From Ectothiorhodospira lacustris (GTDB taxonomy: Bacteria > Pseudomonadota > Gammaproteobacteria > Ectothiorhodospirales > Ectothiorhodospiraceae): a DNA stretch of 64,000 nucleotides. Positions 23,667-59,540 of this stretch are shown piece by piece; position 1 is the stretch's first letter; each line of letters starts with the position of its first letter. The position numbers were made by a program, and so were the translations under genes. Under the pieces are notes generated by a model. That model was not told the origin of the DNA, did no database searches, and saw only the letters and a program-made list of their open reading frames with translations. The stretch is taken from assembly GCF_022227845.1 (NCBI RefSeq), contig NZ_JAJNQN010000011.1, forward strand, positions 1 through 64,000. The letters run 5' to 3'.

Positions 23667-24329
23667 TCAGGGATGGCTGACGACAATCCCTCTGAGTGAG
23701 TGTTCATGCTGAAGCCTGACCTGCAGGGACTGGGCGGCATGACGCTCCAGTTCCGGGCCCACCTTGACCCGGTAGAAGACGCGGCCATCGGCGCTCGTGC
23801 GCTCCACGAAGGCCGGAAACCCTGCCTGGCGCAGCCGGTCCGCCTCGCCTCGCGCATTGGTCTCCTGACCGAAGCTGCCCACCTGGACCACCCAGCCGCC
23901 GGCAACCGGTGTATTGGGGTCGGGAGAACGCACCGGAGTCGGACTGCGGGATTCCGCGGGCGGGGGTGGCGGCGGCGACGCCTCCGGCACGGACCGGGCC
24001 TGGGGCCGGACCTGAGGGGGAGGCGTAGAAGGCACCGGCGAGTCAACCGGCGACGGCGGGGCCATGGTGGCCGGGCGCCGCTCCTGGATCGGTGCCGGCA
24101 CGGGGCGCTCAAAGAGCGGTTCCGGCGGCACCGGTTCCGACAGGCTCAGGCGTGCCTCCCGTCCAGCACCATCCAGCAGCATGGGAAGGAAGATGACGGC
24201 CAGGGCCACCAGCACGGCAGCCCCGACAAGGCGTTGTTTCAATGGTGTTTCCACGGCTTGGGCGTCCTCGGGCGGCAAGTATAAACCATTCCCCTCCCCA
24301 AGGCCCCCTTCCGCTTCAATCCCCCTCAT
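23667..24329 (-). CDS. dedD: SPOR-domain cell-division protein, DedD-like
   Basis: About 220 residues. A short cytoplasmic start, one membrane helix (LVGAAVLVALAVIFLPMLLDG), a long proline-rich periplasmic linker, and a C-terminal SPOR domain (GGWVVQVGSFGQETNARGEA) that binds denuded septal glycan. Position before cvpA-purF fits DedD. It overlaps the end of the GNAT gene by about 14 bases. folC, often upstream of dedD, is absent here. Confidence 0.85.
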   Translation of the reverse strand: MRGIEAEGGLGEGNGLYLPPEDAQAVETPLKQRLVGAAVLVALAVIFLPMLLDGAGREARLSLSEPVPPEPLFERPVPAPIQERRPATMAPPSPVDSPVPSTPPPQVRPQARSVPEASPPPPPPAESRSPTPVRSPDPNTPVAGGWVVQVGSFGQETNARGEADRLRQAGFPAFVERTSADGRVFYRVKVGPELERHAAQSLQVRLQHEHSLRGIVVSHP

Positions 24330-24828
24330 CGAATTCACGTCGCCCCAGCCTCAGATGCATGAGCACACCGGCACGCCCCTGAGCATCCTCATGGCGATCC
24401 ATGCCGTAGGGCATGAAGCCCTTCTCGTAGCACATGAGCAACGCCGGGACATCCTCGGTGGAGACCCGCACATGCATCTCCCGGCAACGCACCTCCCGAA
24501 AGGCGCAACCCATGAGATGGTCCAGCAGACGGGAGCCGATACCACGCCCCCTCAGATCGGCGCGTACCACCAGGTGCCCCACAAAACCCGCCGCCCCCGG
24601 CTCCAGGGATTCCAGGGTACCGAAAGCCACCACCTCGCCCCGATATTCCACCACCTGCGCGCGGGCACTGTCGGCAACCACCCTCTGCAGCCATTCCGGC
24701 GACACCGGATGGGCCGCGCCGGGAAATACCCAGTCCGCCTCACGGGCATCCTCCGGCAATTGAGTGATGACGCCCAGATCGCTCGACGACACAGGGCGGA
24801 TGAGAAGACGCGATGGATCGTACTTCAC
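24316..24828 (-). CDS. GNAT-family N-acetyltransferase
   Basis: 170 residues from a GTG at 24826-24828. The acetyl-CoA binding motif LVVRADLRGRGIGSRLLDHLMG and the flanking strands (LLIRPVSSSDLGVI, VAFGTLESLEPGAAGFVGHL) define the fold. The start is uncertain: the frame stays open to 24981 with ATGs at 24939 and 24924, but that leader is rich in Pro, Gly and Ser and leaves almost no room for a promoter before the divergent hpnC. The substrate is unknown. Confidence 0.75.
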   Translation of the reverse strand: MKYDPSRLLIRPVSSSDLGVITQLPEDAREADWVFPGAAHPVSPEWLQRVVADSARAQVVEYRGEVVAFGTLESLEPGAAGFVGHLVVRADLRGRGIGSRLLDHLMGCAFREVRCREMHVRVSTEDVPALLMCYEKGFMPYGMDRHEDAQGRAGVLMHLRLGRREFDEGD

Positions 24829-51115: not shown

Positions 51116-51961
51116 TCACCCCAGGGACTCCAGCCAAGCCCGCCGGCAATTGGCCTGGCGCCGCTGCTCCAGTACCTGACGGATGCGGCCTCCGGCTTCG
51201 TCCAAAGTGACCAGCCCGGGGGGGTGAATGGTTTCGCAGTAGAGCAGATGCAGGCCCACCTCCGTCTGTACCGGGTCGCTCACCGTGCCGGCCGCCATCT
51301 TGAACAGCACGTCATCCAGTTCCGGGTAAAGATTCCCCTCGGGCATCCGCCCCAGCAGACCGCCCTTGAGGGCGCTGGGACACTCGGAATGGCGCATGGC
51401 CAGATCGGCGAAGGTCCCCAGGTCACTGAGCAAAGTGTCACGGATCATCTCGAGACGTGCCCGGGCCGCCTCCGAGGTATTTTCAGGGTAATCCGGATTG
51501 ATGGTGATCAGGATCTGCCTCACCGTGCGGGTCTCCGGGCGCTCCAGCCGGGTCTTGTGGCACTCATAGTATCGGGTCACCTCCTCGTCCGTCACCGGTT
51601 CGGCCCGGGCGGCAACCCGCTCCAGCAGGACCTCCAGACGCAACTCCCGGTAAAGGGCCTGCCGCAGGGCCTCCCGGTCCAGGCCATGGTGCCGCAGCTC
51701 TTCCTGGAACTGCTTCGGCTCCGGATAGCGCGACTCGATCTCCTGCAAGGCCCGGATCACCTGCCCCTCGGGCACATGGATATCCCTGGCCTCGCTGGAG
51801 GCCAGGGCACGCGCGCCGATGTCATAGGCCTTGAGGGCACGATTGCGAACGATCTTGCGCTCGTCATCGGAGAGACTGCCCAGGGGCTTACTGAAGTAGT
51901 CCAGGGCGGCCCGCAGTTCGATGTAGAGCAGTTCGGGACGCTGTTCCAGTACAAGGGTCAT
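51116..51961 (-). CDS. nifM: NifM peptidylprolyl isomerase for nitrogenase iron protein
   Basis: 281 residues: a helical N-terminal domain and a C-terminal parvulin domain (TVRQILITINPDYPENT... GGLLGRMPEGNLYPELDDVLFKMAAG). NifM is needed to mature NifH. Its start overlaps the nifZ stop (ATGA), and the order nifV-W-Z-M is the conventional one. Confidence 0.93.
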   Translation of the reverse strand: MTLVLEQRPELLYIELRAALDYFSKPLGSLSDDERKIVRNRALKAYDIGARALASSEARDIHVPEGQVIRALQEIESRYPEPKQFQEELRHHGLDREALRQALYRELRLEVLLERVAARAEPVTDEEVTRYYECHKTRLERPETRTVRQILITINPDYPENTSEAARARLEMIRDTLLSDLGTFADLAMRHSECPSALKGGLLGRMPEGNLYPELDDVLFKMAAGTVSDPVQTEVGLHLLYCETIHPPGLVTLDEAGGRIRQVLEQRRQANCRRAWLESLG

Positions 51962-52410
51962 GAAGGGTACTCCTCGGACGGGTCGGTCAGCGCCTTTTCC
52001 GGCACCTGCAGGACCCGTCCGTCAAAGTTCACGTGATAGGCCACACCATCGGGCAGATCCCGCAGGACCTTGCAGACCTCGCCCACGGTCCCCGGCGCCA
52101 CCACCGCCTCGCCGTTGATGCCCAGGGGGATCGCCGGGGTGACCTTGTCGCGAAACTCGTACCGGGTGGGCACCCAGTGGGCATCGGCGTCGATCAGTTC
52201 TTCCTGGCGGCAGCCCACCACACGGCCCGCGTCCAGAAAGTTGACGGTGTAGATCACCTGATCCTGCAGGAAGGTGCCCCTGCCGATGACCACCCCGACA
52301 CTGCCCCTAGGCACCAGCAGCTCGCCCCGGTCCATGCCGGGATAGGTGCCGTCGTTGCGCAAGGGTCGAACCACCCTGACCTGCTCACCGTATTCTCGAT
52401 ATTGCTCCAT
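51958..52410 (-). CDS. nifZ: Nitrogen fixation protein NifZ
   Basis: 150 residues from the ATG at 52408-52410; the upstream extension overlaps nifW and is not coding. Two SH3-like repeats (YREYGEQVRVVRPLRNDGTYPG and GEAVVAPGTVGEVCKVL) are typical of NifZ, which helps in P-cluster formation on the MoFe protein. It follows nifW by four bases. Confidence 0.92.
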   Translation of the reverse strand: MEQYREYGEQVRVVRPLRNDGTYPGMDRGELLVPRGSVGVVIGRGTFLQDQVIYTVNFLDAGRVVGCRQEELIDADAHWVPTRYEFRDKVTPAIPLGINGEAVVAPGTVGEVCKVLRDLPDGVAYHVNFDGRVLQVPEKALTDPSEEYPS

Positions 52411-52414
52411 GGGA

Positions 52415-52747
52415 CTATCTCCGGATGAATGCCTGTTCCAGCGGCACCACGGTGACGCCCGGGGCCGCTCGTTTGAAGACCTTGAACACCTTTTCGGTGC
52501 GGGCATCGGATTCCACGAAGTCCGCATAGGCCTGCATCAGCAGACTGCGATAGACATCCCGACGGGCCGACAGGTCCGTGGGCAGGTTGTCCAGAGTGCC
52601 GGAGAGGTAATCATGAAAACGCTGCAGGATATGCAGGCGATTCACCCGTACGACGGCTTCATCGTAAGGAATGTTGAAATACTCCAGAAACTCCTCGGCG
52701 GACCCCATTTCCTGCAGGTCTTCTTCAAGTTCGGTGGTGTCAGTCAT
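52415..52747 (-). CDS. nifW: Nitrogenase-stabilising protein NifW
   Basis: 110 residues with the family pattern: SAEEFLEYFNIPYDEAVVRVNRLHILQRF start and SLLMQAYADFVESD..EKVFKVFK. NifW helps protect or assemble the MoFe protein. It lies 41 bases after nifV and just before nifZ. Confidence 0.94.
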   Translation of the reverse strand: MTDTTELEEDLQEMGSAEEFLEYFNIPYDEAVVRVNRLHILQRFHDYLSGTLDNLPTDLSARRDVYRSLLMQAYADFVESDARTEKVFKVFKRAAPGVTVVPLEQAFIRR

Positions 52748-52788: not shown

Positions 52789-53934
52789 TCATGCCACAGC
52801 CCCGCTTAGATGGGTGAGTTCCGCATACCAGGTGGCCAGCTCATGCTCCGTCGGCGGCCGCTTGGATTGGGAAACGGATCGACGCAGACGGCTCAGCAGC
52901 AGGGCTGCCTGGGCCTTGTCCAGTGTCACCCCCATACGCGCATAGGCCGCCATCACGCCATGGGCGCCGGAGTGCTTGCCCAGCACCAGGCGGTGCTCCC
53001 GCCCCAGCTCAGCCGGGTCCACCCCCTGATAATTGACGGGGTCCTTGAGCAGGCCGTCCACATGAATGCCGGCCTCGTGGGTGAACACCCCCTCCCCCAC
53101 CAGGCTCTTCTGCCAGTGGATGGGACGGCCGGAAGCGGTCTCCACCAGGTGGGACAGGGCCGGAAAGCGGCGCAGCTCCACGCCGGTCTCGATGCCGTGG
53201 AGCCGGCGCAGCCCCATGACCACCTCTTCCAGGGCGGCGTTACCGGCCCGTTCACCGATACCGTTGACGGTGGTGTTCACGTGGGTGGCGCCGCCGAGGA
53301 CGGCAGCCAGGGTGTTGGCGGTGGCCAGGCCCAGGTCATCGTGGGCATGCATCTCGATCTCCAGATCGGAGACGGCGCGAAGCTGCCGGATACGCGCCAG
53401 CACGCCGAAGGGTTCCATGATGCCCACGGTATCGGCGAAGCGGAAACGCCGCGCCCCGGCGGCCTGGGCGGTTTCTATCACTTGGCAGAGGAAATCGGAA
53501 TCGGCCCGGGAGGCATCTTCTCCCCCCACACCCACCTCCAGTCCCAGCTCCAGGGCCTGGGCCACGTGCCGACGGATGCTCTTCAGCACCCAGTCACGAT
53601 CCCGACCCAGCTTGCGCTGGATCTGCTGATCCGAAACCGGTATGGACAGATCCACCATCTGAACCCCCAGATCCGCGCAGTCGGCCAGGTCATCGGCGCG
53701 CATGCGGCTCCACACCAGCAGACGGGCCTTGAGTCCCAGCTGAGCCAGCAGGGCGATGGATTCCCGCTCCTCGGGGCCCATGGAGGGAATGCCGATTTCC
53801 AGCTCGGGAACGCCCAGGTCGTCCAGCCCCTTGGCGATGGCCACGCGCTCGGCGTCATTGAAGGCCACGCCAGCGGATTGTTCGCCGTCTCTCAGGGTGG
53901 TGTCGTCGATGACGATGCCGGGCGGGGTGGTCAT
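52789..53934 (-). CDS. nifV: Homocitrate synthase
   Basis: 381 residues of the DRE-TIM family: IDDTTLRDGEQSAGVAF is the catalytic strand, EMHAHDDLGLATANT the metal histidine motif, and THVNTTVNGIGERAGNAAL the conserved C-terminal block. It condenses acetyl-CoA and 2-oxoglutarate to homocitrate, a ligand of FeMo-co. It is the first gene after the inserted block and has its own sigma-54-type promoter. Confidence 0.95.
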   Translation of the reverse strand: MTTPPGIVIDDTTLRDGEQSAGVAFNDAERVAIAKGLDDLGVPELEIGIPSMGPEERESIALLAQLGLKARLLVWSRMRADDLADCADLGVQMVDLSIPVSDQQIQRKLGRDRDWVLKSIRRHVAQALELGLEVGVGGEDASRADSDFLCQVIETAQAAGARRFRFADTVGIMEPFGVLARIRQLRAVSDLEIEMHAHDDLGLATANTLAAVLGGATHVNTTVNGIGERAGNAALEEVVMGLRRLHGIETGVELRRFPALSHLVETASGRPIHWQKSLVGEGVFTHEAGIHVDGLLKDPVNYQGVDPAELGREHRLVLGKHSGAHGVMAAYARMGVTLDKAQAALLLSRLRRSVSQSKRPPTEHELATWYAELTHLSGAVA

Positions 53935-53974
53935 GGATGTCCTCGTTGGGCTGGTAGGGCCATGCAGAGGATTT

Positions 53975-53990
53975 AGCGATTATCGTGCCA
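53975..53990 (-). promoter_or_regulatory. Sigma-54 (RpoN) promoter of nifVWZM
   Basis: On the minus strand TGGCACG-ATAA-TCGC matches the -24/-12 consensus TGGCACG-N4-TTGC at all but one position. The invariant GG and GC are separated by the required 10 bases. It stands about 41 bases upstream of the nifV ATG. Confidence 0.78.
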
Positions 53991-54065
53991 GGTCATCAAC
54001 CTAATGATTTGGAATGATTATTTAATGACGGAGTGATGGTGGTTGTGTGACCTGACGGGGTAGAT

Positions 54066-54081
54066 TGTGGGATTTACTACA
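54066..54081. promoter_or_regulatory. NifA upstream activator sequence
   Basis: TGT-N10-ACA is an exact match to the NifA UAS. It lies about 85 bases upstream of the -24 element of the nifV promoter, the usual distance, with an AT-rich stretch (54000-54035) between that could bind IHF. The end of the transposon relic is 12 bases further upstream. Confidence 0.75.
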
Positions 54082-54093
54082 AAGCACCTTACC

Positions 54094-54420
54094 TTGACAT
54101 CCTCCCCTCCCTCTCGCTGATGCTCGCCGCCCGAGGGCGAAAACGAAGGGGATTCCTACCGTGTTCAGCCCGCCAGGGTTGAATCACCTCGGTGGGTTCC
54201 TGCTGCTGGCGACCTGACTGCATCGCTCACTTCACAGGCGAACCGGGCGTGTCCCGCCCTTAAAACGGTCAAGCTGGAAGCGGCAACCGCCATCGGTCGG
54301 AAGAATGGCAGGGTTCCATCCTGATCGTGAATTCGCGCGCACGGTAAATGATATAAGTGGGGAAGACACTTCCCGTCGGGGCCGGCCATGGCGACACCAG
54401 AGTGACCCGCCTCCATACAC
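54094..54420 (-). mobile_element. IS200/IS605-family (IS1341-like) tnpB element relic with right end
   Basis: On the minus strand, a tnpB C-terminus is followed by a hairpin-rich end that reads GGTAGGAATCCCC..GGGGAGGATGTCAA (54154 down to 54094), the usual right end of TnpB elements and the scaffold of their omega RNA. Most of the transposase gene and the left end are missing, so the upper boundary is approximate. The sequence just beyond the end (54093 downwards) is the position of the omega-RNA guide. Confidence 0.72.
54165..54263 (-). pseudogene. C-terminal fragment of tnpB
   Basis: The frame reads VLRAGHARFACEVSDAVRSP and AAGTHRGDSTLAG to a stop, which matches the common NVLRAGHARLACE..PAAGTHR ending of IS605/IS1341 TnpB proteins as I know them. 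The zinc ribbon and RuvC-like nuclease parts are absent upstream, so it is inactive. Confidence 0.7.
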
Positions 54421-54462
54421 GTTTCGGGAGATATCCTAGATGCCTGCGCCAGAACAACCTCG

Positions 54463-57400
54463 GTGACCCAAAGCCCGCCGCCTGGGGATGACCAGCACCG
54501 TCACATCGCGCTCAAGGCCTGGATACTCTATCTGGGCTTTTGCCTGGCGCTGGCCCTGGTGATCGCCTGGGACCTGACCACCTCCAGAGCGCAGGACATG
54601 GAGGCCGCCCGCCAGCGCACCCATTCCACCAGCGTACTGGTGAGCGAATGGCTGTATGCCGCCTTTGAGACCAGCGGTGCCCTGCTCAGCAGCATGGCCG
54701 GCGAGATCCGCCCCGAGCACCTCCCTCCGCCCGATGACGACCCCGAAGCCCACGCCCGAATCAACCAGTGGCTCGAACGGCATCTGCGTCTCCTGCCCCA
54801 TGCCCAGGCCATCGCCCTGTTCGATCACGAAGGGGTGATGACGCATACCTCCGGCGGCCCCCAAGAGATCGATCACGACATCAGCGATCACAGCCATTTT
54901 CAGGCCCTGCGCGCTGATCCCGGCCTGGAGCGCCAGGTTTCCCGCACCTTCTGGTCCCCTGAGGGCAAACGGTTTCTCGTCGCCCATGCCCAGGCCCTTC
55001 GTGATACCGAGGGCCGGTTTGCCGGGCTGCTGGGGGTACGGCTGGACCTGGGGTTTTTCGACCACTGGCTGGAGCGTACCGAGCTCACACCCGGTAGCAG
55101 TCTGACCATCCTGGATCGCGAGGGCAGGTTGCTGGCACGGCGACCCCGGGATAGCGTCCCGGACTTCGAAGCCCAGCTCGGTCACCCGGTGGGGGACGGC
55201 GAAGTGGAACCCCTGCTCCATAACGCGTTGGATACCGTGCATTTCAACATTGTCTCGCCGGTGGACGGGATGCACCGCTCCTACACGGCCCAGATAGTGC
55301 GAGATCTGCCCTTCCTGGTGGTGGCCGGCGAGGCGCGACACACGATCATGGCCGCCTGGTGGCGGAAATTGTGGACGTTGAGCCTCGCCTGGCTGGTCAT
55401 TGCCGGCCTGGGTTTGCTGTTACTGCACGGCTATCTGCGCACCCTGCGGTCCGATCTGGAACTCCAGCGCAGTCATCGCTCCCTGGAAAACGCCAACCAG
55501 ATACTGAGCCAGGGGATCCATGAGCGTCAGTTGGCGGAACGGGCCATCAAGTCCAGCGAGGAACGCTTTCGGGCCTTGTTCGACAACTCCCTCAGTGGTG
55601 CGGCCATGCACGACATCATCCTGGATGAGCGGGGCGAACCATGCGACTACGTCTTCACCATGGCCAATCCGGCCTTCGAGAACCACACCGGCATGAAGGT
55701 CGCCGACGTACTGGGTCGACGCGCCACCGAGATCTACCCGGTGCCGGAGCTGCCGCTGCTGATTCGTCGATTCGGGCAGGTGGCGCTCACGGGAGGGGCT
55801 ATAGCCTTTGAGCAGCACCTGGAGTCCGTGGATCAGTATTTCAGCATCGGCGCCTTCCAGATCGGCCCGGGCAGTTTCGCCGCCATCTTCGACAACATCA
55901 CGGCGCGCAAGCACACGGAAATGGATCTGCGGCGTTCCGAGGAGAAATACCGCTTTCTGGTGGAAAACAGTTACGACATCATCTATCTGTTTTCCCCCGA
56001 TGGACATATCCGGTTCGTTTCGCCCAGCTGGAAGACCCTCATGGGTCACGATCCTGAAAGTGTCCTGGGTCGCCATTTCTCCGAATTCGTCCACCCGGAG
56101 GATCTCCACATCTGCCGGCAGACGTTTGCCGACGTCATGCACCACGGCCACCATGTGCAGGATATCGAATACCGGGTGCAGCATTCGGATGGCAGTTGGC
56201 GCTGGCATAGCTCCAGTGCCCTACCCTCACGGGACGAGGCGGGCCAGATCACCGGCTTCCAGGGGATCGCCCGGGATATCACCGCCCGCAAGCAGGCCGA
56301 GGACGAGATCAGAACCCTGGCTTTCTACGACCCGCTGACCCAGTTGCCCAACCGGCGCCTGCTCACCGAACGCTTGGAGGCGTCCGTCGACCTCTGCCGG
56401 CACGAGAACCATCATGGAGCGCTGTTGTTCATCGATCTGGACAACTTCAAGATCCTCAACGACACCCTGGGTCATGACCAGGGTGACCGCCTGCTCACGC
56501 AGGCGGCCAGGCGCATCAGCGGCTGCGTGCACAAGGCCGACACCGTGGCCCGTTTGGGTGGAGATGAGTTTGTGGTCATGCTGCACAGACTCAGCCACGA
56601 AGCCCAGGAGGCCACGCAACAGGCAGAGATTGTCGCCGACAAGATCCTGGCTGCTCTGAACCATCCCTATCTCCTCGGCAGCCAGGAGCATCACAGCACC
56701 GCCAGTGTCGGCATCACCCTGTTTCATCGTGAGCCGGTGAGCGTGGACGAACTCATGAAGCGGGCCGACCTGGCCATGTATCAGGCCAAGGCGGCAGGGC
56801 GCAACACCCAGCGGCTGTTCGACCCGGCAATGCAGGCCTCAGTGACGGCTCGAGCCGCCCTGGAAAGCGACCTGCGCCGGGCGCTCACGGAAGAACAGTT
56901 CCTGCTGCATTATCAGGCCCTGGTGGACGACGACGGCCAGTTAACGGGTGCCGAAGCCCTGCTGCGCTGGCGGCACCCGGATCGGGGCCTGGTGCCCCCC
57001 GGAGAGTTCATTGCCCTGGCGGAGGACACGGGGCTGATCCTGCCCCTGGGGCAGTGGGTGCTGGAGACCGCCTGTGCCCAATTGGCCGAATGGGCCCGGG
57101 ACCCTTCCCTGAAACACCTGAAGGTCGCGGCTAACGTGAGCGCCCGCCAGTTCCGGCATCCGGACTTCGTGCCGGGTGTGCTGCGGGCACTGAATACCAC
57201 CGGTGCCGACCCTCACCGTCTCAAGCTGGAGATCACCGAAAGCCTGTTACTGGAGGACGTGGAGGAAGTGATCGGCAAGATGCGGCAGTTACGGGCCCGG
57301 GGCGTCACGTTTGCCCTGGATGACTTCGGCACGGGCTACTCTTCCTTGAGCTATCTCAAGCGCCTACCCCTGGACGACGTGAAGATCGACCAGTCGTTCG

Positions 57401-57693
57401 TCCGCGATGTGCTCAACGATCCCAACGACGCGGCCATTGCCCGGACCATCGTGGCCCTGGCAGGTACACTCGGCCTGAGGGTGATCGCCGAGGGGGTAGA
57501 AACCCGGGAACACTGGGAGTGGCTAAGCCGCAATGGCTGCCACACCCACCAGGGCTATTATTTTGGCCGCCCGGGGCCGGTGGGGATCATCCAGGAGGCC
57601 ATCCCGAACCGGACCCCTCCCACCCAGCGGGCAAGCTCCCCGATACGGGCTAACCCCCGGCCGGATGCGGATAAGCGGCCTGGAAGTAGATGA
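54463..57693 (+). CDS. Membrane GGDEF-EAL protein with PDC sensor and two PAS domains
   Basis: 1076 residues starting at a GTG. One membrane helix (about 19-38), a periplasmic double-Cache (PDC) sensor (about 45-290), a second helix (about 300-323), two PAS domains (about 355-490 and 495-620), a GGDEF domain with an intact RLGGDEF (about 697-703), and an EAL domain with EALLRW (about 831) and DDFGTGYSSL. It could make and break cyclic di-GMP in answer to an external signal. It is opposite in direction to the nif genes on both sides. Confidence 0.93.
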   Translation: MTQSPPPGDDQHRHIALKAWILYLGFCLALALVIAWDLTTSRAQDMEAARQRTHSTSVLVSEWLYAAFETSGALLSSMAGEIRPEHLPPPDDDPEAHARINQWLERHLRLLPHAQAIALFDHEGVMTHTSGGPQEIDHDISDHSHFQALRADPGLERQVSRTFWSPEGKRFLVAHAQALRDTEGRFAGLLGVRLDLGFFDHWLERTELTPGSSLTILDREGRLLARRPRDSVPDFEAQLGHPVGDGEVEPLLHNALDTVHFNIVSPVDGMHRSYTAQIVRDLPFLVVAGEARHTIMAAWWRKLWTLSLAWLVIAGLGLLLLHGYLRTLRSDLELQRSHRSLENANQILSQGIHERQLAERAIKSSEERFRALFDNSLSGAAMHDIILDERGEPCDYVFTMANPAFENHTGMKVADVLGRRATEIYPVPELPLLIRRFGQVALTGGAIAFEQHLESVDQYFSIGAFQIGPGSFAAIFDNITARKHTEMDLRRSEEKYRFLVENSYDIIYLFSPDGHIRFVSPSWKTLMGHDPESVLGRHFSEFVHPEDLHICRQTFADVMHHGHHVQDIEYRVQHSDGSWRWHSSSALPSRDEAGQITGFQGIARDITARKQAEDEIRTLAFYDPLTQLPNRRLLTERLEASVDLCRHENHHGALLFIDLDNFKILNDTLGHDQGDRLLTQAARRISGCVHKADTVARLGGDEFVVMLHRLSHEAQEATQQAEIVADKILAALNHPYLLGSQEHHSTASVGITLFHREPVSVDELMKRADLAMYQAKAAGRNTQRLFDPAMQASVTARAALESDLRRALTEEQFLLHYQALVDDDGQLTGAEALLRWRHPDRGLVPPGEFIALAEDTGLILPLGQWVLETACAQLAEWARDPSLKHLKVAANVSARQFRHPDFVPGVLRALNTTGADPHRLKLEITESLLLEDVEEVIGKMRQLRARGVTFALDDFGTGYSSLSYLKRLPLDDVKIDQSFVRDVLNDPNDAAIARTIVALAGTLGLRVIAEGVETREHWEWLSRNGCHTHQGYYFGRPGPVGIIQEAIPNRTPPTQRASSPIRANPRPDADKRPGSR

Positions 57694-57806
57694 GCGAGTT
57701 GAAAGATACCTGAGTTCAAAACTGAAGCAGTAGAGCGAGATTTTGGGAGGCCCACGACTCCGCCGAACACCTGGACTGGCGTCAGGAAAAAGTATGTGGA
57801 TTTTTA

Positions 57807-58130
57807 CTACTTATAGAAAACAGCCAGCCAAACGGTGATCTCATCTGGATCTGTCCAGGCCACCTTGTGTTTGACGTGTGCCGGTATATTAATGTAGTCA
57901 CCCGCTGATAAGTCACATTTCGATCCATCTTCAAAAATCAAGGATGCCTTACCCTCGACAACCATTACCCATTCGTTCTCGTCCTGATCGTACCATCCGC
58001 TATCAGGTGAGGCATGCCCCTTGGAAACAATACGTTCAATTCTCACCGGTGAAGAACGAACAATATCTTCAAAAACCTCTGATTTAAGGTCCTTGGGAAG
58101 CGAATCAAATATATTCAGCGCTTTATGCAT
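57807..58130 (-). CDS. Small cupin-domain protein
   Basis: 107 residues with a single cupin barrel: DENEWVMVVEGKASLIFEDG and the second motif YINIPAHVKHKVAWTD with histidines. Its base composition is visibly richer in A and T than the neighbours (many AAA, AAT and ATA codons), suggesting acquisition from outside. The start overlaps the stop of a dead toxin fragment (TAATG), so it was once part of that operon. The substrate is unknown. Confidence 0.85.
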   Translation of the reverse strand: MHKALNIFDSLPKDLKSEVFEDIVRSSPVRIERIVSKGHASPDSGWYDQDENEWVMVVEGKASLIFEDGSKCDLSAGDYINIPAHVKHKVAWTDPDEITVWLAVFYK

Positions 58131-58210
58131 TATTCGTAGCGATTCCAGAGCCGGAGAACTTTAACCACCCGTTCTTCATCAATCACTTAGCATACCAGGC
58201 GGCGCTGAAC
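58130..58210 (-). pseudogene. RelE/ParE-type toxin C-terminal remnant
   Basis: Minus-strand translation gives NVQRRLVC, a stop, then VIDEERVVKVLRLWNRYE and a stop. This resembles the C-terminal strands of RelE-superfamily toxins (QRRLVY.VIDEERVVKVLR). The internal TAA and loss of the rest of the gene make it non-functional; no antitoxin is visible. The final stop overlaps the cupin start. Confidence 0.6.
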
Positions 58211-58267
58211 ATTAATCCACCGTAAAACAGATTTATAGCGACGGGAGGGTTGATTGGCGCCCAGCGC

Positions 58268-58303
58268 CCAGCACCTACCCCTCTCCCACAGAGGGAGAGG
58301 GAC
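58268..58303. repeat. Dispersed CCCCTCTCCC repeat copy
   Basis: TACCCCTCTCCCACAGAGGGAGAGGGAC forms a hairpin of the same family as the copies at 18585, 36570 and 60583. It lies between the toxin remnant and the nifS stop and marks the right end of the inserted block. Confidence 0.65.
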
Positions 58304-58331
58304 TTTCCTGAGAGACCGATCGCATCCCAAA

Positions 58332-59540
58332 TCAGGCATACGCAGGCGCAAATACTTTTTCCGGGTCCGTGACCGGGCCGTCCACGCCCCAGTAGGGGGA
58401 CATCTTGCGCAGTCTGGCCACGATCTCGGGCATGACTTCGATCACCCGGTCGATCTCGGCCCGGGTGTTGTAGCGGGAGAGGGAAAACCGCACCGAACCA
58501 TGGGCCGCGGTGTAGGGAATCCCCATCGCCCGCATGACGTGGGAGGGCTCCAGGGAACCGGAGGTGCAGGCGGAGCCGCTGGAAGCGGCGATCCCCACCT
58601 GATTCAGCAGCAGCAGGATGGATTCCCCTTCGATGTACTCAAAGGCCATGTTCAGGGTGTTGGGCAGCCGGTTGTCCTGATCCCCCATCACCAGGGCATG
58701 GGGAATGCGTGCCGCCAGACCCGCCTGCAGGTGGTCCCGCAGGGCACGAACCTCTTGGTTTTCAAAGTCCATGTGGCCCATGGCCAGCTCGGCGGCCTTG
58801 CCCAGAGCGACGATGCCGGCACTGTTCTCGGTGCCGGCCCGCCGACCCCGTTCCTGATGGCCGCCCCGCAGCAGGGGCCTAAAGCGTAGGCCACGGCGCA
58901 GGTAGAGTACGCCGATGCCCTTGGGGGCATGCAGCTTGTGACCTGAGAGGGAAAGCATATCGATGGCGGAGGATTTCAGGTCGATGGGCAGCTTGCCCAC
59001 CACCTGCACCGCGTCGGTGTGAAACATCACACCGGCTTCCCGTGCCATCCGGGCCATGGTTTCCACCGGGAACAGGGTGCCGGTCTCGTTGTTGGCCCAC
59101 ATCACCGTCACCAGGGCCACCTGGTCCGACAGCAGGACGGCGTAGTGGTCCAGGTCCAGTCGTCCCTTGCCATCCACCGGTAGTCGATGGATGGTGTAGC
59201 CCTCTTTTTCCAGTTGTTCGCACACGTTGAGGATGGCCGGGTGTTCCACCACGGTGGTGATGATCTCCCGGCGCTGGGGCTGGGCCTTCACCGCCGAGAA
59301 GATGGCGGTGGAATCGGACTCGGTGCCGCAGGAGGTGAACACGATCTCCGAATCATGCTCCGCCCCCAGCAGGGACTGCACCTGGCCCCGGGCCTGCTTG
59401 ATGGCGTGCCCCACCCGGTTGCCGAAGCTGTGGATGGAAGATGGGTTGCCGAACTGCTCGGTGAAGAAGGGCAGCATGGCCTCCACCACCGCCGGGTCCA
59501 CCCGGGTGGTGGCGTTGTTGTCCAGGTAGATGGGCTCCAT
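58332..59540 (-). CDS. nifS: Cysteine desulfurase NifS
   Basis: 402 residues from the ATG at 59538-59540, which has GGAGG at the right distance; an ATG two codons earlier overlaps the nifU stop. The PLP lysine lies in SLSGHKLHAPKG (about 200) and the active cysteine in ASSGSACTSGSLEPSHV (about 326). It supplies sulfur for nitrogenase clusters, with NifU as scaffold. nifV, its usual downstream neighbour, is displaced by the inserted block. Confidence 0.95.
   Translation of the reverse strand: MEPIYLDNNATTRVDPAVVEAMLPFFTEQFGNPSSIHSFGNRVGHAIKQARGQVQSLLGAEHDSEIVFTSCGTESDSTAIFSAVKAQPQRREIITTVVEHPAILNVCEQLEKEGYTIHRLPVDGKGRLDLDHYAVLLSDQVALVTVMWANNETGTLFPVETMARMAREAGVMFHTDAVQVVGKLPIDLKSSAIDMLSLSGHKLHAPKGIGVLYLRRGLRFRPLLRGGHQERGRRAGTENSAGIVALGKAAELAMGHMDFENQEVRALRDHLQAGLAARIPHALVMGDQDNRLPNTLNMAFEYIEGESILLLLNQVGIAASSGSACTSGSLEPSHVMRAMGIPYTAAHGSVRFSLSRYNTRAEIDRVIEVMPEIVARLRKMSPYWGVDGPVTDPEKVFAPAYA

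Follow-up and report, generated by a model that had tools for sequence, protein, structure and literature searches.

In Klebsiella- and Pseudomonas stutzeri-type systems nifV follows nifUS in one operon. In the 64-kb stretch of Ectothiorhodospira lacustris DNA analyzed here (the window), nifS and nifV are separated by 4.4 kb with two genes, one for a cupin and one of the GGDEF/EAL type. What, then, controls nifV and the genes behind it? The original prediction placed a complete NifA/sigma-54 control region directly before nifV, and we consider it very probable that a NifA-activated, sigma-54-dependent promoter starts a separate nifV-nifW-nifZ-nifM unit; activator binding, DNA looping, the start of transcription and the extent of the operon we infer from the sequence.

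Both predicted sites could be located (Table 1). The -24/-12 element, with its 10-base GG-GC spacing, stops 41 bases short of the nifV ATG (53976 to 53934). Above it lies the exact TGT-N10-ACA of a NifA upstream activator site (UAS), which reads TGTGGGATTTACTACA on the plus strand (54066-54081) and TGTAGTAAATCCCACA on the minus strand (54081-54066). The distance of about 85 bases given for it beforehand is acceptable: the measured gap is 75 bases and the start-to-start distance 91, and the UAS centre falls ~110 bases before the predicted nifV start. The predicted leader is ~30 nt long, with GAGGA ahead of the ATG. The consensus of nif promoters is TGGCACG-N4-TTGCW, together with a UAS of the form TGT-N10-ACA (PMC4999443; for the UAS also PMC2820453). 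Compared with such NifA/sigma-54 promoters, the region before nifV shows the same two sites in the same order and usual spacing range, with a nif gene downstream and with NifA and RpoN encoded. It differs in the -12 half, which is TCGC where the consensus has TTGC, and this C for T at -14 recurs in all nine Ectothiorhodospira nifV promoters; most other nifV promoters that we surveyed have TTGC.

Membership among NifA promoters was judged by a UAS roughly 80-150 bases upstream, an IHF site being common but not required. What we find is GG-N10-GC, a UAS at the usual distance, nifA and rpoN in the genome, and conservation among relatives. Upstream of the -24 element there is also a possible IHF site with an AATCA core that does not vary among nine genomes; this is statistically weak, as shuffled spacers give an equally good match in 4-25% of cases, depending on the genome. 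An Rfam search of 53900-54600 gave a sole match, which was discarded as a chance match.

Table 1 Features of the nifV region in the window, with the evidence for each
Feature	Position	Strand	Details
sigma-54 -24/-12 promoter element	53976..53990	minus	TGGCACGATAATCGC, GG-N10-GC
NifA upstream activator site (UAS)	54066..54081	not assigned	exact TGT-N10-ACA
predicted transcription start of nifV	53964	minus	12 bases past the -12 C; inferred from position of the -12 element
possible IHF site	53997..54009	minus	AATCATTAGGTTG, one mismatch to WATCARNNNNTTR; weak
IS200/IS605-type relic	54091..54275	minus	C-terminal end of tnpB plus the right end; adjoins the UAS
GGDEF/EAL (PAS) gene	54463..57693	plus	in the nifS-nifV interval; orientation divergent to nifV
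cupin-domain gene	57807..58130	minus	downstream of nifS; Pfam Cupin_2, 42.5 bits
nifV, homocitrate synthase	52789..53934	minus	TIGR02660, 529 bits, over cut-off
nifW	52415..52747	minus	NifW models, E 6e-26, below curated cut-off; position after nifV
nifZ	51958..52527	minus	Pfam NifZ domain, 105 bits
nifM	51116..51961	minus	TIGR02933, 191 bits, over cut-off

Do the relatives share this arrangement? We located nifV in 16 of 116 genomes, the window's own included, and compared the upstream regions. All eight congeners with nifV, including two strains of E. shaposhnikovii as well as E. magna, E. haloalkaliphila and E. marina, carry both the UAS and the -24/-12 element, the latter in the form TGGCA[CT]-N5-TCGC and with the UAS preceding the -24 element by 90-101 bases, start to start. 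Measured from the UAS centre to -12, the distance is about 97, 105 or 107.5 bases, defining three groups among Ectothiorhodospira. Within the motifs 15 of 16 columns are invariant, compared with 38 of the 177 columns that make up the intergenic stretch (hypergeometric P 1e-10, an optimistic value because related genomes are taken as independent). Aligning the sequence before nifV across relatives had been named beforehand as a check, and it bears the prediction out. Two congeners (G001 and G008) lack a close nifUS both at the nif cluster and elsewhere, having only IscS-like NifS homologues of ~45% identity, and their nifV keeps both sites, which argues that the promoter belongs to nifV. Judged by this distribution, the predicted promoter goes back to the ancestor of the genus, and its conservation in every Ectothiorhodospira relative with nifV implies that nifV carries its own control wherever the neighbouring DNA moved.

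The junction itself differs within the genus. Some 230-310 bases separate nifS from nifV in E. magna, E. haloalkaliphila and E. marina, and the cupin and GGDEF/EAL genes are absent there. E. shaposhnikovii DSM 243 has a glucose/sorbosone dehydrogenase gene in this place. In strain beta1 a dehydrogenase gene and a GGDEF gene stand ahead of nifV, with nifS on a different contig. Strain beta1 also has an IscB-like gene with RRXRR and HNH domains upstream of nifV (L031:1902-3314). No junction compared shows any disruption between UAS and ATG. Could the promoter have arisen after the insertion, as a rescue of nifV? This idea is rejected: relatives that lack the insert, with nifS and nifV still ~210-310 bases apart, have the promoter too, and so it is not a consequence of the insertion.

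It had also been claimed that foreign DNA separates nifV from nifS. The separation is real, and a tnpB relic marks its boundary: 88 bp are 95% identical to C9:484-571, a segment itself inside a TnpB-like zinc-finger C-terminus, and the right end we assign to the IS200/IS605 family. A foreign origin of the whole insert was not accepted. Homologues of the GGDEF/EAL gene occur in all eight congeners (43-77% identity; elsewhere in the genome except in strain beta1), which makes a rearranged resident gene as likely as a foreign one, and its GC content is in line with that of the surroundings; the cupin stretch alone is lower, at ~54%.

The whole 3.28-Mb genome offers a further view on specificity. 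A composite pattern of a -24/-12 element with TGT-N10-ACA 70-100 bases upstream occurs in three places, before nifV, nifH and a flavodoxin gene, and nowhere in the reversed control. The nifH site (C3:70111-70239) has the same UAS/-24/-12 architecture but a gap of 98 bases to the UAS, against 75 for nifV, and TTTGC at -12 where nifV has ATCGC. The third site (L126:5389-5508; G000 C23:217389-217508) precedes a gene at L126:5720-6262 whose product we take to be NifF-like; its leader is long and contains an inverted repeat. As for the regulators, nifA reaches 705 bits with TIGR01817 (cut-off 529) and stands next to a NifL-like gene, presumably nifL judging by its sequence and its place before nifA, and the one rpoN of the genome scores 491 bits against TIGR02395, over the cut-off. 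With the conservation in the congeners, the two encoded regulators and the shared composite, the NifA-type architecture proposed for nifV is upheld. The nifL-nifA operon (contig C11) has two TGT-N10-ACA sites and a near-consensus TGGCCCGGATTTTGC. These control sites lie at L029:6267-6430 (G000 C11 about 24268-24430), and rnf-like genes, which may have a TGGCAC element themselves, run divergently from the operon.

Could short consensus sequences have been matched by chance? Taken singly, they might. TGT-N10-ACA is found once in the window where 7.9 matches are expected, so the UAS by itself is unremarkable and carries no weight; TGGCACG-N4-TYGC is also found once, against 0.16 expected from shuffling, and the looser TGGCAC-N5-TYGC gives 15 matches in the genome against 8 in the reversed control, which makes single elements noisy. 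It is the co-occurrence of both sites that is very unlikely by chance, and together with their orientation and their conservation in eight relatives and beyond the genus it refutes this explanation, to which we give practically no credence. A real sigma-54 promoter driven mainly by an activator other than NifA, for instance NtrC or a NifA-like protein, is a somewhat better candidate, given more than 12 further sigma-54 activator AAA domains in the genome, and still a quite improbable one: none of these exceeds the NifA family cut-off, which full-length NifA does, the site conserved upstream, TGT-N10-ACA, is the pair of half-sites for NifA, and the composite pattern appears only before nif-type genes.

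The reading in which nifVWZM relies on read-through from nifUS or on a housekeeping promoter, the motifs being vestigial, draws on other lineages, and for these we surveyed 80 nifV loci from named genomes (five of them Ectothiorhodospira congeners), 77 with enough upstream sequence. A sigma-54 element lies within 250 bases in 43 of the 77 and both sites are present in 31, compared with none in reverse complements and 0.06 on average in shuffled sequences; the strict motif is missing from many nifV genes of the Chromatiaceae. Among loci with nifS on the upstream side, the seven whose nifS-nifV gap is at most 45 bases all lack a nifV promoter of their own, as read-through would have it, while all 20 with a larger gap have one (Fisher P 1e-6, again optimistic since related loci are treated as independent). 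In the window, a transcript from nifS must cross 4.4 kb including an opposed 3.2-kb gene, a scan of 53900-58500 found no sigma-70-like promoter, and the motif columns are selectively conserved. Read-through is thus a most improbable account of this locus, and the NifA-activated promoter is the reading we retain.

How would such a promoter work? When fixed nitrogen and oxygen are low, NifA would be freed from NifL and bind TGT-N10-ACA at about -110. There it would contact the sigma-54 RNA polymerase, which waits in a closed complex on the -24/-12 element, through looping of the DNA, possibly aided by IHF at the conserved AATCA site. ATP hydrolysis would then open the complex and transcription would begin near 53964. 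Because the promoter is packed into a block of ~146 bases immediately ahead of nifV, DNA that later entered between this gene and nifS would have left nifV control intact. More tentatively, the nifS-nifV junction may be a tolerated insertion site for the very reason that this UAS-to-ATG block makes nifVWZM self-contained, the nifS-nifV distance predicting a NifA promoter of its own and TCGC being tuned; we find this possible but rather doubtful. If true, the conserved TCGC would be a tuned, weaker -12 element, and nifV would be more strictly NifA-dependent than nifH.

Set against known systems, the predicted element is a textbook NifA/sigma-54 promoter, of low novelty and with no new mechanism. 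The same genes are under NifA control in Klebsiella- and P. stutzeri-type nifUSV operons; the difference is that nifV has its own promoter here and in many gamma- and betaproteobacteria. The nif island of P. stutzeri A1501 is predicted to hold 11 NifA/sigma-54 units (PMC2820453). Among the papers searched for nif regulation in Ectothiorhodospira there was no earlier report of this nifV promoter; the matches were, by their titles, genome descriptions of other organisms, and one of them, PMC4465626, holds nothing on nifV. The nifV region adds a well-supported predicted NifA target in a phototrophic halophile and gives an example of an operon that was split by insertions without loss of control. 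For annotation, nifVWZM in Ectothiorhodospira is best treated as a NifA-controlled operon of its own.
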